A stretch of 64,000 bases of DNA from Luteithermobacter gelatinilyticus (lineage in GTDB: Bacteria > Pseudomonadota > Alphaproteobacteria > Sphingomonadales > Emcibacteraceae), in the NCBI RefSeq assembly GCF_005849285.1, contig NZ_CP040517.1:316501-380500 (forward strand). The letters run 5' to 3'. This document shows, in pieces, positions 12,444 through 41,513 of the stretch. The translations under genes and the position numbers were made by a program. Numbering within the stretch: the first letter of the stretch is position 1; each line of letters begins with the position of its first letter. The notes beneath the pieces were generated by a model. That model did no database searches, had not been told where the DNA came from, and was given only the letters and a program-made list of their open reading frames with translations.

Positions 12444-13922
12444 ATGAAGCAAGAGGGGGCTTTGGCAAGCGCAGATTTTGAGGGTGTGGGGAGTATTATG
12501 GAAGCGCAGTGGTCAAGGGTTCTTGACAGACTAAAAGCTGAATTTGACGAGGGGGTCTATAACAGCTGGTTTAAGCCGCTGGCCCTCGTCAATGTGGAAG
12601 AAGGCTGCGCCGTCATGGCGGCTCCAACCAATTTCATGCGCAATTGGCTGGAATCCAACTATGCCGACCGAATCCGGCGTGCCTGGAAGCAGGAAAACCC
12701 AGAGGTTACCGACATCAGCATTATTGTCCTGTCGGCCTTTAAGGCGTCGGAAGCGGCATCCACAGATACCAGTGGCCTGCTGGACAATGATGAACGTGAG
12801 GAGCGCGAGACCGGCGGGCCGGCAACACCGGCTGCGCGTCCGAGTGTTCCGACGCGTGCTTCCCGTGCCGCTGTGGTGCAGGAACCGGGCAACGATTATG
12901 GCGCCCCGCTAGACCGGCGGTTCACCTTTGACAGTTTTGTGGTCGGAAAATCCAATGAACTGGCCTATGCTGCGGCCCGCAGGGTAGCGGAAAATACGGC
13001 GGTGAATTTCAATCCCTTGTTTTTGCATGGTGGGGTGGGGCTCGGCAAAACCCACCTGATGCACGCCATCGCCTGGACCCATAAGGAAATGTTCCCGGAT
13101 CGGCGGGTGGTGTATCTGTCGGCCGAACAGTTTATGTACCAGTTCATCAGTTCCATCCGCTTCAAGGACACCATGGCATTCAAACAGAAGTTCCGTTCGG
13201 TGGACCTTCTGATGATTGATGATCTGCAATTTATTGCCAACAAGGATTCCACCCAGGAGGAATTTTTCCATACCTTTAATGCGCTCATCGACCATCACCG
13301 CCAGGTGGTGATTTCCGCGGATCGCTCGCCCACGGATCTGGAGGGCATCGAGGAGCGCATTCGGTCCCGTCTGGGCTGGGGACTGGTGGCGGATATTCAT
13401 CCCACTGATTATGAGCTGCGCCTCGGCATTTTGCAGCAAAAGGCCAATTCGGTGCCGGAGGTGGAAATCCAGACGGAAGTGCTGGAATTTCTCGCCAAAC
13501 GGATCACCTCCAATGTGCGGGAGCTGGAAGGGGCGCTCAACCGTATGGTAGCCCATGCCACCCTGATCGGCCGGCCGATCACCCTGGAAATGACCCAGGA
13601 AGTGCTGCAGGATCTGCTCAGGGCCAATGACCGACGGGTCACCATTGACGAAATTCAACGCCGGGTGGCGGATTATTTCAACATCCGCCTGTCCGACCTG
13701 CTGTCTTCGCGTCGGGCGCGGCAGGTGGCGCGGCCGCGACAGATCGCCATGTATCTGTCGAAACAGATGACCTCCAAATCGCTGCCGGAAATCGGTCGGC
13801 AGTTTGGCGGTCGGGACCATACCACGGTCATGCATGCGGTCAAACGGATCGAGGAACTGCGCCGCACCGACAGCGTTCTGGAAGAAGATCTTTTGCATTT
13901 GGAACGGATTTTCAGCACCTGA
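12444..13922 (+). CDS. dnaA: Chromosomal replication initiator DnaA
   Basis: AAA+ protein that binds DnaA boxes at the origin and melts DNA to start replication. Within 492 aa: domain I ([20 protein letters not shown]), a variable linker rich in Ala/Pro/Arg, the AAA+ Walker [11 protein letters not shown] and Walker [10 protein letters not shown], and the domain IV DNA-binding signature [16 protein letters not shown] kept the ATG at 12444, which has an AGAGGAAG site; an in-frame ATG at 12498 (MEAQWSRV) would also give a normal N-terminus. It is followed by an intrinsic terminator, so dnaN is transcribed separately. Confidence 0.98.
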
Positions 13923-13931
13923 CGCTTCTTT

Positions 13932-13960
13932 CCCCGGGGCCTATCCGGGGCTTTTTCTTC
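13932..13960 (+). terminator. Intrinsic terminator of dnaA
   Basis: CCCCGG pairs with CCGGGG around GGCCTAT, followed by CTTTTTCTTCT. It begins about 10 bp after the dnaA stop. Confidence 0.85.
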
Positions 13961-14000
13961 TAAAGTGAATTGATGACCGTGTCATCTGTCATGTTTTCCC

Positions 14001-14113
14001 CTTCCGTCGCTCCCACGTAGGCGGGAGCTCAGAGTCCGCCAAAATACTCTCCTCAAAACCGGGCGGGACGTTTTATTGATGAGCTGGATTGCCGCCTTCG
14101 CGGCAATGACGAA
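14001..14113. repeat. Pair of inverted REP-like palindromes
   Basis: GCTCCC...GGGAGC at 14009-14028 and the perfect ATTGCCGC/GCGGCAAT hairpin at 14088-14107 sit in opposite orientation. Their flanks correspond (CTTCCGTC on one, GACGAAGG on the other). This is the layout of bacterial REP pairs, in which a short palindrome is bordered by a GTC-type tag. Confidence 0.55.
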
Positions 14114-14275
14114 GGAGAGGCGGCAAGGACACAGGAAAGGGCGGCAAAGGGGGATTGCGACTCGGCAAAGGCCCTTGGCAAAAATGCCTCTGAGCGGGGT
14201 AAAAATGCCTTTGACCGGGCAGTTCTGTGTGCTAGTCTCTGACCATTAACAGGTGGTCCGGGAGGCCGCTTTTGC

Positions 14276-14305
14276 AGAGGAAATTCCTTGAGGAAATTCC
14301 CTGAG
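14276..14305. repeat. Short tandem duplication, 2 copies
   Basis: GAGGAAATTCCTT and GAGGAAATTCCCT are adjacent copies differing at one base, each with a palindromic GGAAATTCC core, in the dnaA-dnaN gap. Confidence 0.75.
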
Positions 14306-14452
14306 TCGGAAGGGGGCGGCTGAGGTCTTTCCTGTCGGGAATGTCCCCTAGGCCGGCAGGAGGAAAGTCCGTCTGAAAAGTGAGAGTTGTCCACCCTACA
14401 CTGAGTCGACAGCAATTAGATTTAGTCATAATAAGAGAAGCGCGATAAAAAA

Positions 14453-15574
14453 ATGAAGCTGAATATTGAACGCGGTGCATTACTGAAGTCTCTGGGTCAC
14501 ATTCAAAGCGTTGTGGAGCGCAGGAATACCATCCCGATCCTGTCCAACGTCCTTTTGGAAGGGGAGCAGGGCCATCTGAAACTGGCGGCTACCGATCTGG
14601 ACATCGCTATTTCGGAAACAGTGGGCGGAGAGACCCTGGACCCTGGCGGCATTACCGCACCGGCGCACACCTTGTATGACATTGTACGTAAATTGCCCGA
14701 AGGCAGCCAGGTGGAGCTCAGCTACAGCCCCGACAGTCAGCGGCTCAGTATCAGCGCCGGCCGATCGAAATTCACCCTGTCCTGCCTGCCCCGGGAAGAT
14801 TTTCCGGTGATGCACGAAGGTGAGCTGCCGCACAGTTTCCAGGTGGCCAGCATTGACCTGAAACGGTTGATTGACAAAACGCGCTTTGCCGTTTCCACCG
14901 AAGAAACCCGGTATTACCTGAATGGTATTTATATGCATGTCGCTACCGATGACGATGGGGCGCCTGTTCTGCGTGGCGTGGCCACGGACGGACACCGCCT
15001 GGCCCGCTTTGATGTGACGCAACCGGAAGGGGCCGAAGGCATGCCCGGCGTCATTGTGCCGCGCAAGGCGGTGGGCGAATTGCGCAAATTGGTCGATGAA
15101 TATGAAGGCGATGTGGAAGTGGCTTTGTCGGAAACCAAAATCCGATTTGCTTTTGCCGATATTGTGTTGACCTCCAAACTGATCGACGGCACCTTCCCGG
15201 ATTACAGCCGGGTGATTCCCGAAGGCAACGACCGGGTCATGGAAATTGACGGCAAGCAGTTTGCCGAAGCGGTGGACCGGGTGTCTACCATTTCCACCGA
15301 TAAGACCCGGGCCGTGAAACTGAGCCTCGGCCCGGGCCGGTTGCAACTGTCCGTGAACAGCCCTGAACATGGCACAGCGACCGAAGAGCTAAGCTGCACC
15401 TATGAATCGGAAGAAATGGAAATCGGTTTTAATTCCCGTTATCTGTTGGATATTCTGACACAGATCGAGGGAGATGTGGCCCAGATTCTGCTGGCGGAAT
15501 CAACGGCGCCTACTGTGCTGAAGGACCTGAGCGACGAAGGGGCGCTCTATGTGTTGATGCCCATGCGGGTCTGA
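14453..15574 (+). CDS. dnaN: DNA polymerase III beta subunit (sliding clamp)
   Basis: Ring-shaped processivity clamp that tethers DNA polymerases to the template. The 373 aa begin with MKLNIERGALLKSLGHIQ and contain RRNTIPILSNVLLE, LKLAATDLDI, GVATDGHRLA and the C-terminal LSDEGALYVLMPMRV, all diagnostic. Length is normal. It lies between dnaA and recF in the usual order, with gaps of 530 and 301 bp, so it may have its own promoter just upstream. Confidence 0.98.
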   Translation: MKLNIERGALLKSLGHIQSVVERRNTIPILSNVLLEGEQGHLKLAATDLDIAISETVGGETLDPGGITAPAHTLYDIVRKLPEGSQVELSYSPDSQRLSISAGRSKFTLSCLPREDFPVMHEGELPHSFQVASIDLKRLIDKTRFAVSTEETRYYLNGIYMHVATDDDGAPVLRGVATDGHRLARFDVTQPEGAEGMPGVIVPRKAVGELRKLVDEYEGDVEVALSETKIRFAFADIVLTSKLIDGTFPDYSRVIPEGNDRVMEIDGKQFAEAVDRVSTISTDKTRAVKLSLGPGRLQLSVNSPEHGTATEELSCTYESEEMEIGFNSRYLLDILTQIEGDVAQILLAESTAPTVLKDLSDEGALYVLMPMRV

Positions 15575-15875
15575 TCGGTTGGATCGGCCAGTGTCCGGGG
15601 CGGCCTGGTTCCGGACCGTCGGCCGGCTCTGAGACAGGAATGCAGAATTGTGAAATGGTGATCAACTCCGTCAGCTTCCCAAAAACCTACACAAAAATTG
15701 ATGACGAAGTCCGGGGAGAAACTTGTGGAGAATCTGGACCGTTTTCTGGGCCTGAAGCTGGACAGGGATTTGGGACTTGCGGCATCGTGGTCAGGAATAT
15801 GGTGAATCTGAATGCGCTGAAAAACAGAGTGATCCCAAGATGTTGTGAGCGACAGCGGAATTTGGAAGGCTGGGC
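15575..15875. other. Non-coding gap between dnaN and recF
   Basis: About 300 bp with no convincing gene. TGTGGAGAA at 15724-15732 is the complement of TTCTCCACA, one mismatch from a DnaA box, but it stands alone. Nothing else is recognisable. Confidence 0.5.
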
Positions 15876-19618
<3,743 letters not shown>

Positions 19619-29666: not shown

Positions 29667-29697
29667 ATGCGGGATCCTCCGGGGTCCCGCATTTTTG
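29667..29697 (+). terminator. Intrinsic terminator of the cold-shock gene
   Basis: ATGCGGGA pairs with TCCCGCAT, followed by TTTTTG. It lies 40 bp after the stop. Confidence 0.9.
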
Positions 29698-29754
29698 TTG
29701 GGGGCGTTTTGTGAGAATGAATTGTCAGGAACGGAAACAATCGGGAGAAAACTC

Positions 29755-30534
29755 ATGAATCTGGGACTGAAGGGAAAAAAGGCTATTGTCTGTGCTTCCA
29801 GCAAGGGATTGGGACGGGCGGTGGCCGAGGCGCTGGCGGCGGAAGGCGTGGACCTTGTTCTGAACGCGCGCCGTTCGGCCCCTCTGGAAGAGACGGCAAG
29901 GGAATTACACAAGGCTTATGGCGTGCGGGTTACGCCTGTGGCGGATGATATCACCACCGAGGCAGGGCGGGATAAGGTGTTTGCGGTCTGTCCTGATCCC
30001 GATATTTTGATCAATAATGCGGGCGGACCGCCGCCGGGCGATTTCCGCGGCTGGACGGAAAAGGACTGGCAGGCGGCGCTCACGGCCAACATGCTCACCC
30101 CCATCGACATGATTCGCCGGACCTTTGATGGCATGGTTGAGCGCCGGTTCGGCCGGATCATCAACATCACCAGTTCGGCGGTCAAATCGCCGATCAAGGC
30201 GCTGGGCCTGTCCAATGGCGCGCGAGCGGGCCTCACAGGCTTTGTCGCCGGCATTGCCCGGGACGGGGTGGCCCATAATGTGACCCTGAACAATGTGTTA
30301 CCCGGCCTGTTTGCCACCGATCGTATGACGACGCTGATTGAAACGATTTCCGCCCGGGAGAATAGTTCCGAACGCGAGGTGATTGCTGGTCTGACCCACA
30401 GCTTTCCAGCCGGGCGGCTGGGCAAGCCGGAGGAATTTGGGGCGCTGTGCGCCTTCTTTTGCAGCACCTTGGCGGCCTATATTACTGGTCAGAATATTCT
30501 GATTGACGGCGGCGATTATCCGGGCACTTTCTGA
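29755..30534 (+). CDS. SDR-family protein, BKR-like with atypical active site
   Basis: A 259-aa Rossmann-fold protein of the short-chain dehydrogenase family, closest in pattern to 3-oxoacyl-ACP reductase-like SDRs. The nucleotide loop reads ASSKGLGRA instead of TGxxxGIG, NNAG is present (INNAGG), and the catalytic Ser is present in ITSSAVKSP. The YxxxK pair is replaced: the segment reads LSNGARAGLTGF, so the Tyr is Ser and the Lys is Arg. A subgroup without a full catalytic tetrad is known (BKR_like_SDR_like). The open frame starts further up, but MNLGLKGKKA with GGGAG upstream is the natural start. Function uncertain. Confidence 0.88.
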   Translation: MNLGLKGKKAIVCASSKGLGRAVAEALAAEGVDLVLNARRSAPLEETARELHKAYGVRVTPVADDITTEAGRDKVFAVCPDPDILINNAGGPPPGDFRGWTEKDWQAALTANMLTPIDMIRRTFDGMVERRFGRIINITSSAVKSPIKALGLSNGARAGLTGFVAGIARDGVAHNVTLNNVLPGLFATDRMTTLIETISARENSSEREVIAGLTHSFPAGRLGKPEEFGALCAFFCSTLAAYITGQNILIDGGDYPGTF

Positions 30535-30603: not shown

Positions 30604-33009
30604 TCAGAACCGGTAATCCACGGTCAGGGTGAAGGTCCGCGGATTGCCGTAAAAGGCGGTTAGCGTGCCTTCCGTTCCCAGCGTCGGGGTGATGGTGCCG
30701 TCATCCCCGATGGCAACGAAATTATACCCGGCCACGATATATTTCTTGTCGGTGATGTTCTTGGCATGCAGCCCGACGGACAGTTTGTCATCTTCCGCAT
30801 TCCAGACGATGCTGGCGTCCCACAGCGCAAAGCCAGGCTGATCCAGGAACGGGTTGGGGGTTTCAAACTGGCTGGCGTCGCTGCGATAGGCCAGGGACGT
30901 GATCAGCGACAGCGCGCCGTCATAGGAGCCCAGCGCCATCGGCCGGGTATAATGCAGCGAACCGCTGGCCGTCCATTCCGGGGTGTTCTGGAATACCCGC
31001 TCATCTGCCACGTCTTGCCCGAAGGCGTCGATAAATTCGTTAAACTTGGCGTCGAGATATCCTACCGCCCAGGTCATGTTCAGCGTATCGCCCTGACCGG
31101 TCATATCGGCTGCCAGAAGGGCGCGGCCTTCGACTTCGATACCGTTAACGTCTGCGTCGCCGGCATTGGACGTAACCCCGATAAAGGTGCCGTCAGGTGC
31201 GCCAACGGAGCCCGGGATCTGAATGTCGGTATAGCTGGACAGGAAACCGGCAACGCTGATGTCCATGCGATTGTCGAACAGCGAGGCTTTCCAGCCCAGT
31301 TCGAATGTCTTCACGGTCTCGGGCTCGAACGACATGAAGGCGAAAATATCCGCGTCATCAATGTCGCCGTCGCCATCCAGGTCAGGAGCCGCCGTTGTCT
31401 GACCGCGCGGGTCGAACCCGCCGCCTTTGAACCCTTCGCTATAGCTGAAATAGATATTATGGTCATCGTTGGGTTTCCAGCTCACTGATGCGCGCGGCGT
31501 GAATTTGGTGAATTTTTCGCTGCCGTCAAAGTCAGACGTGGTGGCGATCAGGATCGGGTTGCCGCCGAATCGTTCGGATGCGCCGCCGATAAAGGTGCGC
31601 CGAAGTACGCGTGAGGAGCGTTTGTCGCTGGTATAGCGTCCGCCGACGGAGACGCTGACCTGTTCGGTGAGGTCATAGGTGAAGTCGCCGAAGACGGACC
31701 AGGTTTTGGTGTCCACGTCGCCAAACGTATTGGCGTTGAGCCCCGGCAGGCCAAGAATGTCGCCGGTTGTCCCCAGAATCACGTCAAAATCGTTGAGCGC
31801 ATTAGCCTCAAGATAATAAAAACCGGCCACGCCGCTCAGCTTCTCGCCTTCATACAGGATCTGGAACTCTTCCGAAAACTGATCATTCTCGTACACCACC
31901 GGCACATCGACATCGGCAACCGGCAGGCTGTCGAAATCAATGGGGCTGTAGGATTCATCCTTGCGGTAGGCCACGATGTTTTTCAGCATCAGGGTATCCG
32001 TGAGCTGCCATTCAAACAGGCCGGAAAAACCATAGGCTTCGACGCTCTGGACCGGATTGTTGAGGCCGGCGCGGGTGTCAAAGACATCGTCAAGTACCGG
32101 ATCGCCTGAGGTGCTCGGGATCAGGCGGTGTCCCTGCCGCGGATCAGAATCATCTTTCACATAGTCGGCGGCAAGCCGGATGAAGATATTCTCAGAAGGC
32201 AGCAGTTCCACGGAACCACGTCCTGCCAAGACCTGTTTGTGATAATTGTCAATGCCTTCGAGGTTCAGGTTTTCCCCAAAACCGTCGCGGTTGAGGGTGG
32301 CAAACGAGGCGCCAACCCGAACCATGTCTGAAATCGGCACGCTGCCGGAAACAACCAGGTCAAGTTGTTTATAGCTCCCGACCGACCCCCGGACATTGAG
32401 TTCCGGTTCTTCGCCCAAACGCTTGGTGACATATTTCACGGCGCCGCCGATGGTGTTGCGGCCATACAGGGTGCCCTGGGGCCCGCGCAACACCTCGATG
32501 CGCTCCACATCGTAAATGTCCAGCACCGCGCCCTGGGGCCGGTTGAGGTAGACATCGTCGATATAAAGGCCAACCCCGGCTTCAAACCCCGCAACCGGGT
32601 CCTGCTGACCGATACCGCGAATAAACGCTGTCAACGTCGTGTTGGTGCCGCGGGAGACTTCAAGGGTCAGGTTCGGGGTGAATTTTGCCACTTCGACAAT
32701 GTCCTGAACGCCCTGGTTTTCCAGCATCTGGGCGCCAAAGGCGGAAACGGCGACCGGCACATCCTGCAACGATTCCGACCGGCGCCGCGCAGTGACGACA
32801 ATTTCATCAAGTGCCATACCGCTTTCGACATTTTCTTCTGCCGCCCAGGCCGGCGCGGCAATACTCATCGCGCCGGCCAGGACGCCCCCCAGAATCCCCG
32901 TGCCCAAAACGCTATGCAAGGAAACTGTGGGCAAGGAAACTGTGGGCAAGGAAACTGTGGGTAAGGAAACTGTGGAAAGAATTCTGTTTTTGTGTGGTGT
33001 CTTATGCAT
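30604..33009 (-). CDS. TonB-dependent outer-membrane receptor
   Basis: An outer-membrane beta-barrel importer powered by TonB-ExbBD, 801 aa from the chosen ATG (33009, preceded by GGGAGG). After a signal peptide ending near WAAEEN come the TonB box region (ALDEIVVTARRR), the plug (VPVAVSAFGAQMLENQG, RIEVLRGPQGTLYGRNTIGG) and a barrel ending in the aromatic-terminal signature TLTVDYRF. The leader contains a fivefold amino-acid repeat (TVSLP) created by a 15-bp tandem repeat. It is divergent from the permease and hydrolase genes, so it may import 3-hydroxybutyrate oligomers or a related substrate; that is inference, since receptors of this type are not predictable from sequence alone. Confidence 0.92.
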   Translation of the reverse strand: MHKTPHKNRILSTVSLPTVSLPTVSLPTVSLHSVLGTGILGGVLAGAMSIAAPAWAAEENVESGMALDEIVVTARRRSESLQDVPVAVSAFGAQMLENQGVQDIVEVAKFTPNLTLEVSRGTNTTLTAFIRGIGQQDPVAGFEAGVGLYIDDVYLNRPQGAVLDIYDVERIEVLRGPQGTLYGRNTIGGAVKYVTKRLGEEPELNVRGSVGSYKQLDLVVSGSVPISDMVRVGASFATLNRDGFGENLNLEGIDNYHKQVLAGRGSVELLPSENIFIRLAADYVKDDSDPRQGHRLIPSTSGDPVLDDVFDTRAGLNNPVQSVEAYGFSGLFEWQLTDTLMLKNIVAYRKDESYSPIDFDSLPVADVDVPVVYENDQFSEEFQILYEGEKLSGVAGFYYLEANALNDFDVILGTTGDILGLPGLNANTFGDVDTKTWSVFGDFTYDLTEQVSVSVGGRYTSDKRSSRVLRRTFIGGASERFGGNPILIATTSDFDGSEKFTKFTPRASVSWKPNDDHNIYFSYSEGFKGGGFDPRGQTTAAPDLDGDGDIDDADIFAFMSFEPETVKTFELGWKASLFDNRMDISVAGFLSSYTDIQIPGSVGAPDGTFIGVTSNAGDADVNGIEVEGRALLAADMTGQGDTLNMTWAVGYLDAKFNEFIDAFGQDVADERVFQNTPEWTASGSLHYTRPMALGSYDGALSLITSLAYRSDASQFETPNPFLDQPGFALWDASIVWNAEDDKLSVGLHAKNITDKKYIVAGYNFVAIGDDGTITPTLGTEGTLTAFYGNPRTFTLTVDYRF
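32918..32977. repeat. 15-bp tandem repeat, 4 copies, within coding sequence
   Basis: Four consecutive units of AAGGAAACTGTGGGC (the last two with one or two changes). On the coding strand each adds TVSLP, so the receptor's leader reads TVSLP three times plus TVSLH. The frame is preserved. Confidence 0.95.
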
Positions 33010-33164
33010 CAGATCAACCTCCCGGATGGTTAAAGTTTTTTGCCCTGCACGATATTTCGGGTGCGATACTGGACGTGATCTTGCGTCCACGCGGCTTCCC
33101 AAGAGTGCAGGGGGTTCAACAATATTGCTGCCACCCTATCACAGGCCGCTGCTGATGACCCTAT

Positions 33165-33174
33165 AGACCTAGGT
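33165..33174. promoter_or_regulatory. Palindrome in the divergent promoter region
   Basis: GACCTAGGTC is a perfect 10-bp palindrome flanked by CTATA on the left and CATATA on the right, between the divergent TonB receptor and permease genes. It could be an operator controlling both. No regulator is assigned. Confidence 0.4.
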
Positions 33175-33284
33175 CCATATACCCCCCCGGCTTTGCTTTG
33201 TCCTAAGATAAACCTCTGTAAATTCAAAAAATTACTATAAATCAGATAGATAGATGGGGGCGTGATCAGGGAGATGGTAATTCG

Positions 33285-34607
33285 ATGTTAAGCCTTATCG
33301 GACTTATTGGCGGACTGGCGCTGCTCATAATTCTGACCATTCGCGGGGTCAGCATCATGATCGCGGCGCCATTTTGCGCGTTGATTGTGGCGCTGACGGG
33401 CGATCTGTCGCTGATGCCGCAACTGGTGGACCGGGCGACGGATCCGCAGGCGGTCGATTATGTCACCCGCTACATGACGGGGTTCACCCGGTTTATTTTT
33501 TCCTGGTTTTTCATGTTTCTGCTGGGGGCTCTGTTCGGCAAGGTCATGGAGGATAGCGGCGCCGCCTACAGCTTTTCCGACTGGCTCATCGGCAAGCTGG
33601 GGCGCAACAATGCCCTGCTGGCGGTGGTGGCCGCCTGTGCCGTGTTGACCTATGGCGGGGTGAGTGTGTTTGTGGTGGCCTTTTCCGTCTACCCAATTGC
33701 GCTCAGCCTGTTTAAGGAAGCCGATCTGCCGCGCCGGTTTATCCCGGCCACCATGGCCTTTGGGTCCGTGACGTTTACCATGACCTCGGCCGGGTCGCCG
33801 GAAATTCAGAACTGGATTCCCATCAAGTTTCTGGGCACCACCCATTTTGCCGGCTGGCAGGTCAGTCTGGTGGTAGCGTTGGTGATGATGGTGATGGGGT
33901 ATATGTGGCTGAAATTCATGGTGCGCCGGGCCGTGGCCAATGGAGAACGCTTTGAGATCCGTGTGGATGACGTGTTCGAACGCTCTGCCAGTAGCCTGCC
34001 GCATCCGGTGCTCAGCCTATTGCCGTTGCTGGCGGTATTGGGGGTATCATTTTTCTTTCATGACACCCTGAAGGAATCCGCGTTGATCGTTGCCCTGCTG
34101 AGCGGGGTTCTGATGGGGATATTTCTGAATCTGAAACGGTTTGAGAATTTGCAGAAAACCTGCGCTATTGGGGCGACAGGCGCGGTGATTGCCATTGCCA
34201 ACACGGCGGCGGTGGTGGGGTTTGGCACCGTAGCGCAGGCGACGCCGGCTTTTGCCGAGGCGGTGGCTTTCATGACCAGCCTGCCAGGCAATGAACTGGT
34301 GGGCGCGGCCGTGGCGGTGACGGTGATTGCCGGGCTTACCGGTTCGGCCTCCGGCGGGCAGTCCATTGCTCTGCCGCTCCTGGCCCCCCATTATCTGGAG
34401 GCCGGGGTCAATCCCGATGCCTTGCACCGGGTGGTGGCCATTGCCTCCGGTGCGCTCGATAGCCTGCCCCATAATGGCTATGTGGTGACCACCATTCAGG
34501 CCATCTGCAAGGAAACTCATAAAAATGCCTATGCGCCACTCGGGGCGCTGACGGTGATCGTGCCAACCCTTGGGCTGATCCTGGCGATTGCCCTGTTTGT
34601 GATATAA
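33285..34607 (+). CDS. GntP-family permease
   Basis: A 440-aa inner-membrane proton symporter of the gluconate/3-hydroxybutyrate permease family. It has about 12 hydrophobic helices, with GGVSVFVVAFSVYPIALSLF and SAGSPEIQNWIPIKFLGT in the first half and ASGGQSIALPLLAPHYL with GALDSLPHNGYVVT in the second; these Gly/Ser-rich loops are family marks. It sits 10 bp before the 3-hydroxybutyrate oligomer hydrolase, so 3-hydroxybutyrate is the most likely substrate by context, not from sequence alone. Confidence 0.88.
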   Translation: MLSLIGLIGGLALLIILTIRGVSIMIAAPFCALIVALTGDLSLMPQLVDRATDPQAVDYVTRYMTGFTRFIFSWFFMFLLGALFGKVMEDSGAAYSFSDWLIGKLGRNNALLAVVAACAVLTYGGVSVFVVAFSVYPIALSLFKEADLPRRFIPATMAFGSVTFTMTSAGSPEIQNWIPIKFLGTTHFAGWQVSLVVALVMMVMGYMWLKFMVRRAVANGERFEIRVDDVFERSASSLPHPVLSLLPLLAVLGVSFFFHDTLKESALIVALLSGVLMGIFLNLKRFENLQKTCAIGATGAVIAIANTAAVVGFGTVAQATPAFAEAVAFMTSLPGNELVGAAVAVTVIAGLTGSASGGQSIALPLLAPHYLEAGVNPDALHRVVAIASGALDSLPHNGYVVTTIQAICKETHKNAYAPLGALTVIVPTLGLILAIALFVI

Positions 34608-34617
34608 GAGATCGAAA

Positions 34618-36693
34618 ATGAAACAATTTCATAAAAAAACGATTCTGCCTTTGGTGGCCCTGACGGGCGTGTTGTTCAGTAGCGCTGTTGCCGGAGGAAC
34701 ACAGAAACTCGCCACAAACCTCCCGGGGGAACAGGGAATCCGGCCCGAGTATCTGTTAGGGCAGGAAGTCATTACCTATTATGACGGTACCGACAATGAC
34801 CTGCTTACGGCGGGACTGGGCACCAAGGGATTGAACGGCCCGGAACCGGCGCCGCAGGATCCCCTGAATCCCACCGACGAGGAATTGCGGCGGCTGACCA
34901 TTTATACCAATTTCCGGGCGCTGGTGGATGTGACGGAAGCCGGTGGATATGGCCGGCTGTATGGCCCCAAGGGAGAGGGTAAAGTGGCGGGCCATGAATA
35001 TCTGGTCATGGGAGAGGTGGACGGTCTCAACCATCCTGTGACGTTCATGGTTCAGGTGCCGGATCATTTTGATCCCGAAGACCCCTGTCTCATCACCGCG
35101 CCGTCGTCCGGCGGGCGCACGGTATATGGCGCGGTGGGCACGGTGGGAAGCTGGGCCCTGCCCAAGGGATGCGCCGTAGCCTATACGGACAAAGCCACCG
35201 GCATTGGGGTGCAGTATCTGCGCGACCACCAAGGGCATGACATGAGGGGACGGCTGATCTCTTTGGACGAGAACAAAGAACTGCCTTTCCGCCTGGCCAT
35301 GAATGAAAGTCTGAAAGCCTTCATCAAGGACCACCCACAGCACGTGGCTCTGAAACATGCCCATTCCCGGGACAATTCCCAGAAAGACTGGGGCCGGATC
35401 GTGCTCAACTCCATCGACGTGGCGTTTTATATCCTAAACAAACATCATCGTGCCCAGGAAGATGCGCCGCGCTATACCCGCGATACTGTGCTGGTGATTG
35501 CGTCCAGCATTTCCAATGGCGGCTATAGTTCCCTCAAAGCGCTTGAAGCGGACCGGGAAGGTCTGATCGACGGACTGGTGGTTTCCGAACCCAATGTGAT
35601 GCCGGATATGGCCACAGCGCCGTCCGTTGTTATTGAGTCTGCGGGAGAGGTGTTGGAATCGCCGGGCCAGTCGTTTCTGGATTATGCCAGCCGGATGAAT
35701 GTGCTGTTACCTTGCGCATTTGTTTTGGAACCGATGACAAATCCGCTGAAGGCGCTGATTCCTACCGGGCAGGAAGCGCTGGAAAACCGCTGCCGGACTC
35801 TGGCGGCACACGATATTGTGACGGGTGAAACCGTTGAGGACATGGCCCGGGATGCCCGGGAGCAGTTGCGGGCCTATGGCATTCTGGACGAGACCCGACT
35901 GTTGGACGGGTTTTCGGTGTTTGCGGAAATCTGGCCTTCCGTGGTCACGGACTACACCCTTGCCTATGGCCGGTACGGGGTGGAAGACAATCTGTGTGGC
36001 ATCGGCATCGCGCCGGCGGACCAGCAAGGCGTTGTCACCTCGTATTCCGATATCCAGAAACACACCAATTTTGCCAAAAGTTCCGGCATGATTCCCAATA
36101 ATGGCCTGTATTGGGTGAAAAAGGCCGGGGATGGCTGGAAGCGCAGCCTGTATGTGCCGAACCCGGAAAACGGCCTTCTGGACCTGGATGGGGCGGGGGC
36201 ACTGTGTCTGGACGAGCTGGTCCGGGATAATCCGGCGGTGGCCCGGGGCAAGCAGGAAGTGAAAAACAGTGGCGATCTGGGCGGGCGGCCGGCGATCATT
36301 ATTCATGGCCGCATGGACAACCTGATTCATGTGAATCATGCCTCACGCCCCTATTACGCACTCAATAAGCTGCGCGAAGGGGAAAAATCCGCTCTCAGAT
36401 ATTATGAGGTTCGCCACGGCCAGCATTTCGACAGCCTGCCCATGTTCCCGGTCTATGCGCCGCATCTGGTGCCGCTGCATTATTATTTGGAACAGGGGCT
36501 GGAGTTGATGTGGGATCATCTGAAATCCGGTCGCGCCCTGCCGCCCAGCCAGGTCATCCCCAGTGTGCCACGCGGCATCAATGAGAAGGGCACCATCCCG
36601 CCACTGGACCAGCGCAATGTCCCGCCCATTCTGGAAAAGCCCGGAAAAAATGCTATTACATTTGACGGCGGGCGCCTCATGATCCCAGAATAG
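34618..36693 (+). CDS. D-(-)-3-hydroxybutyrate oligomer hydrolase
   Basis: A 691-aa secreted or periplasmic esterase that cleaves oligomers of 3-hydroxybutyrate, products of polyhydroxybutyrate breakdown, to the monomer. It has a signal peptide (basic MKQFHKK, hydrophobic core, AGG cleavage region). Recognisable family segments are TAPSSGGRTVYGAVGTVGSW, the nucleophile region VIASSISNGGYSSL with Ser in SISNGG, and the C-terminal GQHFDSLPMF with the likely catalytic His. The length is in the usual range for the family (about 690 aa). It is co-transcribed with the GntP permease (10-bp gap). Confidence 0.88.
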   Translation: MKQFHKKTILPLVALTGVLFSSAVAGGTQKLATNLPGEQGIRPEYLLGQEVITYYDGTDNDLLTAGLGTKGLNGPEPAPQDPLNPTDEELRRLTIYTNFRALVDVTEAGGYGRLYGPKGEGKVAGHEYLVMGEVDGLNHPVTFMVQVPDHFDPEDPCLITAPSSGGRTVYGAVGTVGSWALPKGCAVAYTDKATGIGVQYLRDHQGHDMRGRLISLDENKELPFRLAMNESLKAFIKDHPQHVALKHAHSRDNSQKDWGRIVLNSIDVAFYILNKHHRAQEDAPRYTRDTVLVIASSISNGGYSSLKALEADREGLIDGLVVSEPNVMPDMATAPSVVIESAGEVLESPGQSFLDYASRMNVLLPCAFVLEPMTNPLKALIPTGQEALENRCRTLAAHDIVTGETVEDMARDAREQLRAYGILDETRLLDGFSVFAEIWPSVVTDYTLAYGRYGVEDNLCGIGIAPADQQGVVTSYSDIQKHTNFAKSSGMIPNNGLYWVKKAGDGWKRSLYVPNPENGLLDLDGAGALCLDELVRDNPAVARGKQEVKNSGDLGGRPAIIIHGRMDNLIHVNHASRPYYALNKLREGEKSALRYYEVRHGQHFDSLPMFPVYAPHLVPLHYYLEQGLELMWDHLKSGRALPPSQVIPSVPRGINEKGTIPPLDQRNVPPILEKPGKNAITFDGGRLMIPE

Positions 36694-37043
36694 GCCCGGG
36701 AAGAAAAGCTGATACAGCGCACGGTCTTTACCATGAGGGCGTGCGCAATGCCATTCCCACTTTGTGGATCGCCATGGCTCCTTTGGGGCTTCGCGGTGAC
36801 GGAAACTGACAAGATGTTTTGTCACAAGGTGTTTTGTCCCAAGGTGTTTTGTCATTGCGCGCGAGGGTCGCGAGCGCGACAATGCATGAAGTTCGTGCTC
36901 CGCCCTTTACGGATCCACCGCCCCCGCTGATGTGGGGTTGCGCAGATGGATCTGGGCGGCGGTTGGTAATGGAGGAACAGACGGGATGAGAAACAACCAT
37001 CCATGACGGAAGGTTTGGTAAAAAACTTTCCAGAGGGAACAAC
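36694..37043. other. Non-coding gap before the hybrid kinase
   Basis: About 350 bp without a gene. It contains a stretch resembling degenerate REP sequence (36750-36805, CCATGGCTCC...GACGGAAAC), a 15-bp tandem repeat (36811-36855) and an imperfect GC-rich hairpin with CATTGCGCGCGAG and GCGAGCGCGACAATG arms (36853-36885). The kinase promoter is presumably in the last 140 bp. Confidence 0.55.
36811..36855. repeat. 15-bp tandem repeat, 3 copies
   Basis: AAGATGTTTTGTCAC, AAGGTGTTTTGTCCC and AAGGTGTTTTGTCAT are adjacent. They sit in non-coding DNA between the hydrolase and hybrid-kinase genes. Confidence 0.9.
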
Positions 37044-40000
37044 ATGCTGAACAACTGGTCCATCATTCTCATCTCGCTGGGGTATATGGGGCTGCTGTTT
37101 TTTATTGCCTGGCTTGGTGACCGCCGTCCCGAACGTCTCAACCGGTCCCGCTGGCGACCGATCATTTACGGTCTGGGATTTGCCGTGCATACCACCACAT
37201 GGGGCATGTACGGTACGATCGGCCAGACAGTGCAGACCGGCTGGATCACCGGCCCCACCTATATTGGCGGCATTATTGTCATGCTGCTGATGGGCGGCTT
37301 TCTTGCCAAGATGCTAGCGGTGGGGCACCGCCAGCATATCACCTCCATCGCCGATTTTATTTCGGCCCGATATGGAAAATCCCAATCTCTGGCGGTTTTT
37401 GTCACCGTGGTGGCGATTATTGGGGTCACGCCCTATATTGCCTTGCAGCTTAAGGCGCTGGCGGTCAGTTTCAACGTTCTGGCCGGGGCTGGCGAAGGGG
37501 CGGGCTGGCCGTCCACCTCGCAGCCTTTCGGGCGGGATACGGCCCTGTTTGTGGCGGTGGTCATGGCCCTGTTTTCCATCCTGTTCGGCACCCGGCGAAT
37601 CGTTTCTTCCGAACGGCATGAAGGCATGATGCTGGCCATCGCCTTTGAGACTCTGGTCAAACTCACGGCGTTCCTGGCGGTGGGCCTTTTTGTCACTTTC
37701 GGGCTGTATGACGGTTTTCTCCATATTTCTGAGACCGCCGCACTGGAGGGGATTTACGCACATCTGGCGGCGGAAGAAACCCGGCAATACAGTTTTCTCA
37801 CCTCCATTTTTCTGGGGGGATTGGCGATTTTCTGTCTGCCTCGGTCGTTTCATGTGATGGTGGTGGAAAATAACGAAGCCGGAGACCTGAAGCAGGCCCG
37901 CTGGGTTTTTGCCGCTTTTCTGTTGCTCATGGGGATTTTTATCTGGCCCATTGCAAGCGCCGGTCTGTTGCTGCTGCCGGAAGGCGCCAATCCGGAAATG
38001 TTTATTCTGGAACTGCCGCTCATGGCCGAGAAGCCCTGGCTTGCCCTGTTTGTTTATATCGGGGGGCTTTCCGCAGCGACCAGCATGGTGATCGTCTCTT
38101 CCGTGGCGCTCAGCATTATGATCTGCAATGATGTGGTGATGCCGTTTCTGTTGCGGCTGCCGTATTTCACACGGGACAAATCCCGTGATTTTGCGGGGCT
38201 GGTGCGTCTGGTCCGGCGGCTGGCCATTGTCGGCATCCTGGCGCTGGCCTATATTTATTATCGCCTGCTGGCGGATTATACGGAACTGGCGTCTTTTGGC
38301 CTCCTGTCCATGGCGCTGCTTAGCCAGTTTGCCCCCTCGCTGATTGGTGGTCTTTACTGGAAGGCGGGGCATCGGCGGGGGGTGATGGCGGGTCTGGTGA
38401 TGGGATTCGGGGTCTGTCTTTACACCCTTCTGCTGCCCGAACTGGCCCGTTCGGGCCTGATTGATTCGGCATTTCTCCAGAACGGCCCCTTTGGCCTGCG
38501 CTGGTTGCGGCCCGAAGCCCTGATGGGTATTGAGGCCATGGACCGGATTGGCAACGGCCTGTTCTGGAGTCTGCTGGTCAATACTGGGGGATATGTTTTT
38601 GTGTCGCTGCGCTCACGGCCCAATCTGGTGGAGCATATTCAGGCGGCAAGCTTTACCGATCATGACCAGGATCCGGTCCGCGATGATCTTCCCCCGTTCC
38701 GCAGCGCCGCCACCAATGCCGATTTGCAGACCCTGGCCGAACGTTTTATTGGCGAAGAGGCGGCGCAGGAAGCGTTTCGCAAATTCGCCCGGGATAAGGA
38801 TGTGCAGCTTGGCCCCGCCGATAAAGCCTCCTCTACCACCATTCATTTTACTGAACGGCTGTTGGCCGGTGCCATCGGCTCGGCGTCGGCTCGGGTGGTG
38901 CTCCGTATGGCGTTGGAAGGGCGCGACATGGGTGTGGAGGATTTTGTCAGCATCGTGGACGAAGCCTCCAGCGTGTTTAAATACAATCGCGACCTGTTGC
39001 AATCCTCCATGGATAATGTCAGTCCGGGCATCAGCGTGGTGGATCACAATCTGCGTCTGGTGGCCTGGAACAAAAGTTATGAAGCCATGTTCGGCTATCC
39101 GGAGGGGTTTTTATATGAAGGCCGCCATGTCGCCGATCTCCTGCGCTACAACGCCGAACAGGGGCAGTTTGGTGATAGCGATCCGCAAGAAGAAATCCGT
39201 AAACGCCTTGCCTATATGGAACAGGGGTCGGCCTATACCTATCAGCGCTGGCGCAGGGATGGCACGGTCATTGAAATGCGTGGCAAACCTATGCCGGGCG
39301 GCGGGTTTGTCACCAGTTATACGGATATTACCGAATTCAAAAAGGCGGAGCAGGCGCTCAAGGAAGCCAATGAAACCCTCGAGCAGCGGGTGCGCGAGCG
39401 CACCCGGGCCTTAACCGAAGCCAATAAAAATCTCATTCTTGCCAAACAGGAGGCAGACCGGGCCAATAAAAGCAAAACCCGGTTTCTGGCGGCGGTGAGC
39501 CATGATGTGTTGCAGCCGCTCAACGCTGCGAAACTGTTCGCCACGGCCCTGGCTCAGCAGAATTATGACGCGAAGACCCATGATCTTATTGATCATCTTC
39601 ACAGCGCCCTGAATTCGGTGGAGGATATTCTGCGCGAGGTGCTGGATATTTCCAAACTGGAATCGGGGGCCATCCGGCCAGAGGTCACGACGGTGTCCCT
39701 GCGTGAGCTGTTTGACAATCTGAGCCGGGAATTCCTGCCCCTGTTTCGGGAAAAGGGTCTTGAGCTGCGCACCGTTGGCACCGATGTTGCCGTGCGCAGC
39801 GACCGGCAGTTTTTGCGCCGCATTTTGCAGAATTTCCTGTCCAACGCCCTGAATTATACGCGGGCGGGCAAGGTGCTATTGGGATGTCGCCGGGCGGGCC
39901 CCGGCCATCTTCGTCTTGAAGTCTGGGATATGGGGCCGGGTATTCCCGAAAGTCACAGAGAGGCTATTTTCGGGGAGTTTCAGCGGCTTGATCTCCATGA

Positions 40001-40559
40001 CAATGGCGGCCCGAAGGGGGCCAAAGGGCTGGGGCTGGGCCTGGCGATTGTCCGGCATATGAGCCGGATTCTTGATCATCCGGTAACGCTCAGATCCTGG
40101 CCGGGTCAGGGCAGCGTGTTTGCCGTGACGGTACCCCTGGACCATAAAGCCGCCGATCCTGTCCGTCGCGAAGACCGTGCCGTGCCGCCGGCGAGGTTGT
40201 TTGCTGGGGCGGAAGTGATCTGTCTGGACAATGATCCCGCCATTCTCAGGGGCATGGAAGCGTTGCTGGAGGAGTGGGGATTGAAAGTGATTTGCTGCCG
40301 CACGGAGGAGGAGTTTATGGACCGCCTTAACGGCCATCGCCCGGGAGTGATTCTTGCGGATTATCATCTGGACGGCGCCCGCAACGGGCTGGATATTCTG
40401 GCGGATCTGAAAGGCCGTCTGGATGTGCCCTGTATCGTGATTTCCGCGGACCAGATGGATCACGTGAAAAAAGAAGCGCGTCGTCAAGGCTATTACTATC
40501 TCAGCAAGCCGCTCAAGGCGGCCTCGCTCCGGGCGTTGCTGAATAAACTTCTGAGCTAG
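37044..40559 (+). CDS. Hybrid sensor histidine kinase with SSS transporter-like N-terminus (CrbS/MxtR type)
   Basis: An 1171-aa membrane kinase. About residues 1-500 resemble a sodium:solute symporter (SLC5) with some 12-13 helices (HTTTWGMYGTIGQTVQTGWI, FADSISARYGKS-type loop, ATSMVIVSSVALSIMICND). A linker with ERLLAGAIGSASARVVL follows, then PAS (MDNVSPGISVVDHNLRLVAW, about 650-760), a coiled coil, HisKA with the phosphorylated His in AAVSHDVLQPLNAAK, HATPase_c (NFLSNALNYT, DMGPGIPE, GLGLGLAIV), and a C-terminal receiver with Asp in LADYHLDG. This order matches CrbS/MxtR kinases of the acetate switch, a family inference. The stop TAG is the start of a palindromic element. Confidence 0.92.
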   Translation: MLNNWSIILISLGYMGLLFFIAWLGDRRPERLNRSRWRPIIYGLGFAVHTTTWGMYGTIGQTVQTGWITGPTYIGGIIVMLLMGGFLAKMLAVGHRQHITSIADFISARYGKSQSLAVFVTVVAIIGVTPYIALQLKALAVSFNVLAGAGEGAGWPSTSQPFGRDTALFVAVVMALFSILFGTRRIVSSERHEGMMLAIAFETLVKLTAFLAVGLFVTFGLYDGFLHISETAALEGIYAHLAAEETRQYSFLTSIFLGGLAIFCLPRSFHVMVVENNEAGDLKQARWVFAAFLLLMGIFIWPIASAGLLLLPEGANPEMFILELPLMAEKPWLALFVYIGGLSAATSMVIVSSVALSIMICNDVVMPFLLRLPYFTRDKSRDFAGLVRLVRRLAIVGILALAYIYYRLLADYTELASFGLLSMALLSQFAPSLIGGLYWKAGHRRGVMAGLVMGFGVCLYTLLLPELARSGLIDSAFLQNGPFGLRWLRPEALMGIEAMDRIGNGLFWSLLVNTGGYVFVSLRSRPNLVEHIQAASFTDHDQDPVRDDLPPFRSAATNADLQTLAERFIGEEAAQEAFRKFARDKDVQLGPADKASSTTIHFTERLLAGAIGSASARVVLRMALEGRDMGVEDFVSIVDEASSVFKYNRDLLQSSMDNVSPGISVVDHNLRLVAWNKSYEAMFGYPEGFLYEGRHVADLLRYNAEQGQFGDSDPQEEIRKRLAYMEQGSAYTYQRWRRDGTVIEMRGKPMPGGGFVTSYTDITEFKKAEQALKEANETLEQRVRERTRALTEANKNLILAKQEADRANKSKTRFLAAVSHDVLQPLNAAKLFATALAQQNYDAKTHDLIDHLHSALNSVEDILREVLDISKLESGAIRPEVTTVSLRELFDNLSREFLPLFREKGLELRTVGTDVAVRSDRQFLRRILQNFLSNALNYTRAGKVLLGCRRAGPGHLRLEVWDMGPGIPESHREAIFGEFQRLDLHDNGGPKGAKGLGLGLAIVRHMSRILDHPVTLRSWPGQGSVFAVTVPLDHKAADPVRREDRAVPPARLFAGAEVICLDNDPAILRGMEALLEEWGLKVICCRTEEEFMDRLNGHRPGVILADYHLDGARNGLDILADLKGRLDVPCIVISADQMDHVKKEARRQGYYYLSKPLKAASLRALLNKLLS

Positions 40560-40594: not shown

Positions 40595-40650
40595 GGCCCG
40601 GTCGGTTTGCTTTCGTTTGATGACCCGGTTTGCAAGCTTTGCTGTCATGG

Positions 40651-40690
40651 CGAGTCAGCGCGAGTCAGCGCGAGTCAGCGCGAGTCAGCG
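40651..40690. repeat. 10-bp tandem repeat, 4 copies, over a stop codon
   Basis: CGAGTCAGCG occurs four times exactly. On the minus strand the TGA at 40675-40677, inside the array, ends the response regulator, giving the C-terminus FDADSR. A change in copy number could move the stop. Confidence 0.95.
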
Positions 40691-41340
40691 TCAAAGCCGA
40701 GTTCGTCCAGGTCCAGCCGTTTCATCGCAGCCACGATCTGGGTGCGCCGGAAAACGCCGAATTTTTTCAGAATGGCGGTCATGTGGGCTTTGACAGTGGA
40801 AATGGACAGCCCCATTTCATAAGCAATCTGTTTGTTGAGCAGCCCTTGGGCCATATAACACAGGACCCGGTATTGCTGCGGGGTGAGGCCGCCCAGGATT
40901 TCCGCAAGTTGTTTTTGATCCAGATCCGGTTCATGGTGCTGCTCCCGCGCCTGTTGCGGGATCCAGACCTGTCCCTTGTCAATCGTTTTCAGGGCGTCGG
41001 CCATCTCAGGCAGACTTAAGGATTTGGGAATGAACCCCGACGCGCCATAGCCGATACACTGATGAACGGTCTTGCTGCTTTCATTGCCGGAAACGATCAC
41101 AATGGGCAGGTCCGGATGATGTTCGCGCATAAAAATCAGCCCGGAATAGCCATAAGTTCCCGGCATGCTCAGGTCCAGAAGCAGCAGGTCGAGAGCCGTT
41201 CCCCGGTCCAGTTCGGCCTGTAGGCCCTCAAAATTTCCGGCTTCTTTGATTTCGGTGTCGCCAAAGGCCTGGGGGATGGCCTGGCGCAATGCAATCCGGA
41301 ACAGGGGGTGGTCGTCAGCTATAAGTATGGTTTTTGTCAT
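40675..41340 (-). CDS. LuxR-family response regulator (CrbR/ErdR type)
   Basis: A 221-aa two-component regulator: N-terminal receiver (ILIADDHPLFRIALRQ with the acidic pair, phosphoacceptor Asp56 in LLLLDLSMPG, Lys in FIPKS) and a C-terminal LuxR-type helix-turn-helix (GLTPQQYRVLCYMAQGLLNK, SISTVKAHMTAILKKF). The open frame starts at 41397, but MTKTILIADDH at 41340 is the natural start. It converges on the SSS-type hybrid kinase. CrbS-type kinases with LuxR-type partners form the acetate switch in other proteobacteria, so they may be partners here. Its stop lies in the tandem array. Confidence 0.9.
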   Translation of the reverse strand: MTKTILIADDHPLFRIALRQAIPQAFGDTEIKEAGNFEGLQAELDRGTALDLLLLDLSMPGTYGYSGLIFMREHHPDLPIVIVSGNESSKTVHQCIGYGASGFIPKSLSLPEMADALKTIDKGQVWIPQQAREQHHEPDLDQKQLAEILGGLTPQQYRVLCYMAQGLLNKQIAYEMGLSISTVKAHMTAILKKFGVFRRTQIVAAMKRLDLDELGFDADSR

Positions 41341-41513
41341 GAGCCCGACAGATGAATTGTTTCTCCCGCGGGGTATGCTAACGGTTTTGCCGATCAAGGT
41401 ACAGGAAATATCTTGGCGGAACAGGGCAAAAGAGACAACAAAAAAGCCACATGCGAGTCAGATAATTTTGAAACCCGACATCGTTCAGCGGATCAAGGCG
41501 CGTCATCTCCGCC

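Follow-up and report, generated by a model that had tools for sequence, protein, structure and literature searches.

In the 64,000-nt stretch of Luteithermobacter gelatinilyticus DNA analysed here (the window), we found a locus that is likely, with good confidence, to serve the use of 3-hydroxybutyrate (3HB), and in which the position of the TonB-dependent receptor (TBDR) appears from sequence comparison to have been refilled several times by recombination with promoter, permease, hydrolase and kinase retained. This exchangeable receptor at a fixed catabolic site is the most interesting feature of the locus and was absent from the first-pass annotation, which had described a divergent unit of receptor, permease and 3HB-oligomer hydrolase for the use of external oligomers. 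Use of 3HB or its oligomers is supported, as the unit is kept in 9 of 9 Emcibacter-family hydrolase loci long enough to show it and its parts recur in Lysobacterales/Wenzhouxiangella. The unit is also larger than first described, a hybrid histidine kinase and a LuxR-type response regulator being further members.

Gene content of the locus

The divergent unit is present and coding by profile. The TBDR gene (30604-33009, minus strand) encodes Pfam Plug (2.3e-19) and TonB_dep_Rec_b-barrel (1.6e-44) domains, both over cut-off, and a TonB-box-like DEIVVTA read by eye. A longer open frame begins at TTG 33102, but we set the start at ATG 33009 (801 aa) because GGGAGG stands before it. The leader holds four in-frame copies of a 15-nt tandem repeat (32916-32975), giving PTVSL repeats, which is not visible in the receptor leader of the close relative L019. 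Receptor and permease share a divergent control region (33010-33284) with a counterpart kept in 12 family regions, and the palindrome that had been reported there was found at 33162-33179 (TATAGACCTAGGTCCATA, one mismatched pair).

The permease gene (33285-34607, plus strand) encodes 440 aa with about 11 hydrophobic segments and ends 10 nt before the hydrolase gene. Its original label, GntP-type, has to be weakened, since the protein is a member by no model used: NCBIfam gave no match, CitMHS and Na_H_antiporter matched weakly and under cut-off, and a 64% identical paralogue, which aligns over its full length with gntP (TIGR00791), scored 28 bits against a cut-off of 293. Judged by sequence, the permease is at best a remote GntP/CitMHS-like or ion-transporter-like protein, and we propose it as a putative carrier of 3HB or short oligomers. 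Its structure model is poor (pLDDT 56.5), and a search for sequence relatives in the PDB found none. Of the 296 genomes of the order, 44 have a permease match at E ≤ 0.001, and several of these have a second, non-locus copy. The second copy in the genome studied is the paralogue mentioned above (G000:C1:486435-487745; L139 8936-10255), also present in several relatives; it adjoins PrkA and YeaH-type genes, and was therefore rejected as part of the 3HB locus, to which it has no link.

The assignment of the 3HB-oligomer hydrolase (34618-36693, plus strand) was borne out. As in other PF10605 hydrolases, the profile matches over its full length (residues 39-691; 621.6 bits against a gathering score of 27; E 2.3e-186), and the nucleophile-elbow S299, D567 and H603 are invariant in 22 aligned members. 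In the predicted model (mean pLDDT 90.7), S299 follows a strand and opens a helix, and D567 and H603 come after later strands; Ser299-Asp567-His603 is our candidate catalytic triad. The solved folds nearest to the model are lipases, feruloyl esterase B and MHETase of Ideonella sakaiensis, a cutter of polyester breakdown products, but the TM-scores are only about 0.3 and the identity to MHETase is 11-12%, which points to the broad alpha/beta-hydrolase (esterase) class, with no closer membership claimed. Hydrolysis of 3HB oligomers, established for other members of the family, would be the function of the window enzyme too. PDB sequence matches of the hydrolase are at chance level only (best E 0.43), and those of the TBDR are siderophore, heme and B12 receptors, matched mainly in the N-terminal plug part; none of the PDB relatives sought for receptor, permease and hydrolase reveals a ligand.

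The hybrid histidine kinase gene (37044-40559, plus strand) follows the hydrolase gene, and the response regulator gene (40675-41397, minus strand) is convergent with it. Hydrolase and kinase are separated by a gap of 350 nt (36694-37043), within which lie a tandem repeat with a 15-nt unit (36809-36854) and, near 36851-36891, an inverted repeat; in L018 the gap measures only about 12 nt, and in L019 about 53 nt. Between the convergent kinase and regulator genes, four perfect copies of GCGAGTCAGC (40650-40690) run across the end of the regulator gene. Elsewhere in the window, dnaA, dnaN, a RecF-like gene and gyrB are consecutive (12444-19618), a typical origin-side cluster. The SDR at 29695-30534 scored 111 bits, short of the cut-off of 307, and was rejected as the 3HB dehydrogenase; the actual candidate, over cut-off, lies elsewhere in the genome (G000:C1:2397103).

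Conservation in the family and beyond

The hydrolase was found in 12 of the 296 sampled genomes of the order, and 11 of these are among the 32 sampled Emcibacter-family members. All nine family loci long enough to show the front (the window, L017-L021, L026, L028 and L029) have receptor and permease back to back and then the hydrolase; the kinase comes next, followed by the convergent regulator wherever the contig reaches that far. Three further family genomes (G069, G092 and G111) have receptor and permease at a contig end, and no hydrolase was found in them.

Scanning across bacterial and archaeal genomes identified 76 hydrolase loci, comprising 8 of the same family records, 26 from Lysobacterales/Wenzhouxiangella and 42 others. 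Among the 26 Lysobacterales/Wenzhouxiangella loci, 25 contain the regulator, 20 the kinase, 18 an SDR, 15 the receptor and 12 the permease, many of these loci being cut by contig or locus ends before the farther genes. In this group permease and receptor stand back to back, the kinase comes behind the receptor, and regulator, SDR and hydrolase follow in that order. After two overlong frames (L065 and L086) had been dropped, all 16 SDRs scanned of the 18 matched the 3HB dehydrogenase model TIGR01963 at E ≤ 1e-80, and two scanned singly were above its cut-off. Clear exceptions are the Lysobacter loci L070 and L071, which have kinase, regulator and hydrolase with no receptor or permease in the stretch and presumably aroA and pheA upstream, and L097, which consists of SDR and hydrolase alone. 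L082, with no receptor in the 2.1 kb upstream of the kinase, is a probable exception.

The 42 other loci come from Betaproteobacteria, Marinobacter, Desulfobacterota and others, many on short contigs. Forty of them lack a receptor above 300 bits (L041 has a weak match of 32 bits), so that the window, with its receptor, is unlike most PF10605 loci outside the two receptor-bearing groups; the permease, a full-length CrbS-like kinase and the regulator were found in none of the 42. The two loci with a receptor, L073 (same record as L024) and L106, show a third arrangement, with an AraC-type gene, receptor and hydrolase on one strand (L024 4932-10147; L106 6105-11584). They belong to two unrelated lineages, and their hydrolases are apparently without an export signal. 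The counts in the family and in Lysobacterales/Wenzhouxiangella, set against 2 of 42 elsewhere, indicate that receptor and hydrolase stay associated in a pair of distant groups, with differing gene orders, and that elsewhere they usually do not. Synteny of receptor, permease and hydrolase, proposed earlier as a check, holds in all nine family loci long enough to show it and is rearranged beside a 3HB dehydrogenase in Lysobacterales/Wenzhouxiangella. To our knowledge, the best-known PF10605 members (Ralstonia pickettii, Cupriavidus) have not been described with a receptor or a sensor pair.

Sensor pair and promoter palindrome

Pfam assigns PAS, HisKA, HATPase and receiver domains to the kinase, behind a transporter-like N-terminus of about 10 hydrophobic segments, and the protein scores 409.5 bits against the NahK/ErcS C-terminal model (cut-off 400). 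In its first 650 residues Pfam shows no SLC5 or other match at E 0.001, a difference from SLC5/STAC kinases by this search. The best model of the regulator is ErdR (E 3e-61), at 207 bits against a cut-off of 390. In sequence, the two proteins resemble the acetate system CrbS/CrbR (MxtR/ErdR). CrbS/CrbR is an SLC5/STAC pair for acetate and RpuS/RpuR one for pyruvate; according to PMC9100948, the CrbS and CrbR genes of Sinorhizobium fredii are adjacent, convergent and needed for acetate. The window pair is like these systems in its PAS-HisKA-HATPase-receiver kinase with a hydrophobic N-terminus and its LuxR-type regulator, and like S. fredii in its convergent genes; it is unlike CrbS/CrbR in its position in a 3HB locus, in the ErdR score below cut-off and in the flanks of the palindrome, which differ from those of ACTU sites.

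A search with the first 635 residues of the kinase found relatives at 51% identity or more in all 11 family genomes with the hydrolase and in no others (in G106 in two pieces, 54 and 46%), the next best elsewhere reaching 44%. In the genome studied, the window kinase is the sole full-length kinase of the CrbS-like kind, three other matches covering the kinase part only. A second transporter-like kinase type with a longer frame (about 1290-1330 aa) occurs in family members both with and without the 3HB locus (G008:C4:646520, G021:C1:2555978, G095:C45:7931 and G051:C16:55103).

Symmetry alone does not make the palindrome rare, as the 64-kb window has 10 such 18-mers; the evidence is its conservation. 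Of 12 family intergenic regions, 10 carry TAGACC[AT][TA]GGTC[CT]A unchanged, and L018 and L137 each depart from it by one core base. Eight distinct family loci include both hydrolase and intergenic region, and in every one of them no other site agrees with the pattern at 12 or more of its 14 positions. Loci without receptor, permease or kinase gave one chance match, in L068. In the genome studied, TANACCWWGGTCNA matches exactly once, at the receptor/permease promoter; with one mismatch there are 17 matches against 52 for the reversed control pattern, so that the loose pattern is not enriched.

CrbR requires an imperfect inverted repeat, the ACTU motif, according to PMC5715377. From the 20 sites of its Table 4, mostly non-significant by the q-values given there, we built an ACTU matrix. 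The GACC-NN-GGTC core of the palindrome is like that of some of those listed sites, and its core 10-mer is the best ACTU core match in the 64 kb (14.3 bits; listed sites 6.8-14.9), but the full 17-mer reaches 9.5 bits, below the 13.8-20.5 of the listed sites. At 10 bits the full matrix misses the palindrome and finds one other match in the window, against 6 to 13 in shuffled windows. The palindrome was accordingly rejected as a plain ACTU site, agreement being confined to the core, and this failure of the full matrix counts against our best explanation. We regard it as the likely operator of the unit's LuxR-type regulator. The permease/receptor gaps of Lysobacterales/Wenzhouxiangella carry a different though similar pattern, TGT[AC]C[CG]AANG, in 12 of 12 cases (2.9 kb) with 6 other matches in the 257 kb of these loci, a count that is partly circular because the pattern was read from those same gaps.

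The strongest competing explanation concerns this pair, which could be the ordinary acetate CrbS/CrbR of the genome, placed here by chance, with regulation uninformative on 3HB. Such a coincidence would fit both the layout in S. fredii and the single full-length kinase of this kind in the genome, and we hold it to be possible, though rather doubtful. The kinase orthologues come after the hydrolase in 11 of 11 family cases, the exact palindrome stands at this promoter only while the 400 nt upstream of acs contain no ACTU-matrix site of 5 bits or more, and in Lysobacterales the regulator adjoins SDR and hydrolase, all of which argue against such a coincidence.

The receptor and its position

Receptor kin at E ≤ 1e-100 occur in 186 of the 296 genomes of the order, against 12 for the hydrolase. 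At the level of the receptor family, the receptor is thus found without permease and hydrolase in most relatives, the outcome that the first-pass annotation had named as contrary to its reading; at the locus the opposite holds, the receptor being present wherever family hydrolase, permease and kinase co-occur. That annotation also regarded oligomer import as a novel use of a TonB receptor. TonB receptors for carbon sources, such as SusC and MalA, are already known, so only the substrate would be new.

The nearest kin of the window receptor outside the family sit at other loci, without the hydrolase. Two of them, L119 and L120 (about 68% identical), adjoin AMP-binding CoA ligases (L119 6581-8137; L120 10562-15163); the L120 region also has two alpha/beta hydrolases and an MFS carrier and is perhaps an ester-utilisation locus. 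The substrate of the receptor might then be iron, or a fatty or aromatic acid or ester, with the receptor merely co-regulated within a 3HB locus, as these neighbours, the four receptor lineages at the slot described below and the mostly receptor-free hydrolase loci of other lineages would allow. We consider this unlikely, given a slot filled in 9 of 9 family loci and 15 of 26 Lysobacterales/Wenzhouxiangella loci, and a receptor beside the hydrolase also in L024/L073 and L106. That the receptor imports 3HB oligomers is somewhat more likely than not. The far wider spread of receptor kin than of the hydrolase, the 40 of 42 other loci without a receptor, and L070, L071, L082 and L097 are points against oligomer import.

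The family locus receptors fall in four places in a tree of 47 receptors, built after removal of nine duplicates among the loci and of receptor fragments shorter than 550 aa. A single clade for all locus receptors was rejected, as well-supported branches force at least 4 changes; unsure placements are the long branch L066 and the long-branch join of L156_4406p with L106/L024. Receptors of the window type group with receptors from hydrolase-free genomes. Within one genus (g4), four receptor lineages occupy the slot, in the sets window, L019, L137 and L138; L017, L021, L028 and L029; L018 and L020; and L026 and L156. Pairwise identity in this genus spans 84-97% among permeases, 67-81% among hydrolases, 74-85% among kinases and 39-91% among receptors; for the receptors, the split of the one in L156 into two frames and some draft contigs may lower identities, L137 and L138 being unaffected.

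The receptors of L137 and L138 are 82-83% identical to that of the window, but their permeases, present as pieces of 126 and 178 aa, share 88-97% identity with those of their own genus. In L138, resemblance to the window type extends up to about 400 nt left of the palindrome; from there resemblance to the genus type takes over and continues through the promoter into the permease, so that the receptor body looks exchanged behind a kept leader and promoter. Since receptor kin are so widespread in the order, donors would be plentiful. Tentatively, and with less confidence than we give to oligomer import itself, we propose TonB-dependent uptake of PHB oligomers under an own SLC5-type sensor kinase, with the receptor as an exchangeable cassette behind the kept promoter and leader. 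Receptor swaps might perhaps serve escape from phages or bacteriocins that use the receptor, or tuning of oligomer length.

Predicted export of the hydrolase and proposed pathway

The hydrolase N-terminus in the window (MKQFHKKTILPLVALTGVLFSSAVAGG) is signal-like and cleavable-looking, without a lipobox, whereas 10 of 10 family relatives with an intact hydrolase N-terminus have a lipobox, as called by a simple hydrophobicity and lipobox rule rather than SignalP. With an export signal by this rule, the window enzyme does not look cytosolic, the location that would have spoken against the original reading. That the hydrolase is instead extracellular or at the cell surface, with only 3HB monomer entering (by diffusion and permease) and the receptor taking larger debris or being unrelated, is improbable, because the neighbours scanned include no dedicated secretion gene and a conserved receptor would have no role, even if the signal types described would suit it and Ralstonia pickettii T1 reportedly has an extracellular member of the family.

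We lean towards a self-contained scavenging locus for 3HB oligomers, with TonB-driven import, periplasmic hydrolysis and monomer uptake. Oligomers would arise from PHB decay outside the cell, probably released by other bacteria, and the TBDR would bind them and move them across the outer membrane with TonB energy. The exported hydrolase would cut them to 3HB in the periplasm, and the permease would carry 3HB, perhaps dimers too, into the cytoplasm, where the 3HB dehydrogenase encoded elsewhere in the genome would oxidise it and begin catabolism. The CrbS/CrbR-like pair may sense a related carboxylate and act on the palindrome to switch the divergent promoter. The genome has two PhaC synthases and no PF10503 secreted PHB esterase, so that other organisms or a different enzyme would have to supply the oligomers. 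That small oligomers could enter through porins counts against a need for import by the receptor.

Discussion

TonB-dependent carbohydrate utilisation loci (CUT loci, SusC-type) bring together a receptor, an exported hydrolase, a carrier in the inner membrane and a regulator. The window locus joins the same four elements, and is a variant of the TonB-linked catabolic locus, a known kind; it is unlike CUT and SusC-type loci in its substrate class, which would be a polyester oligomer. A Pfam scan of window neighbours showed no SusD-like lipoprotein gene.

In open-licence PubMed Central, no paper was found, judged by titles and abstract starts, on a TonB receptor for 3HB oligomers or on a CrbS/CrbR-type system for 3HB, which is weak evidence of novelty because subscription journals are mostly absent from that collection. 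PHB is widespread as a storage polymer and is sold as a bioplastic. The locus gives a named receptor, carrier, enzyme and sensor pair for the proposed use of 3HB oligomers. Moreover, the receptor slot is a natural experiment, in which several receptors have occupied the same position, with the same promoter and pathway, and should share a ligand if our reading is true.
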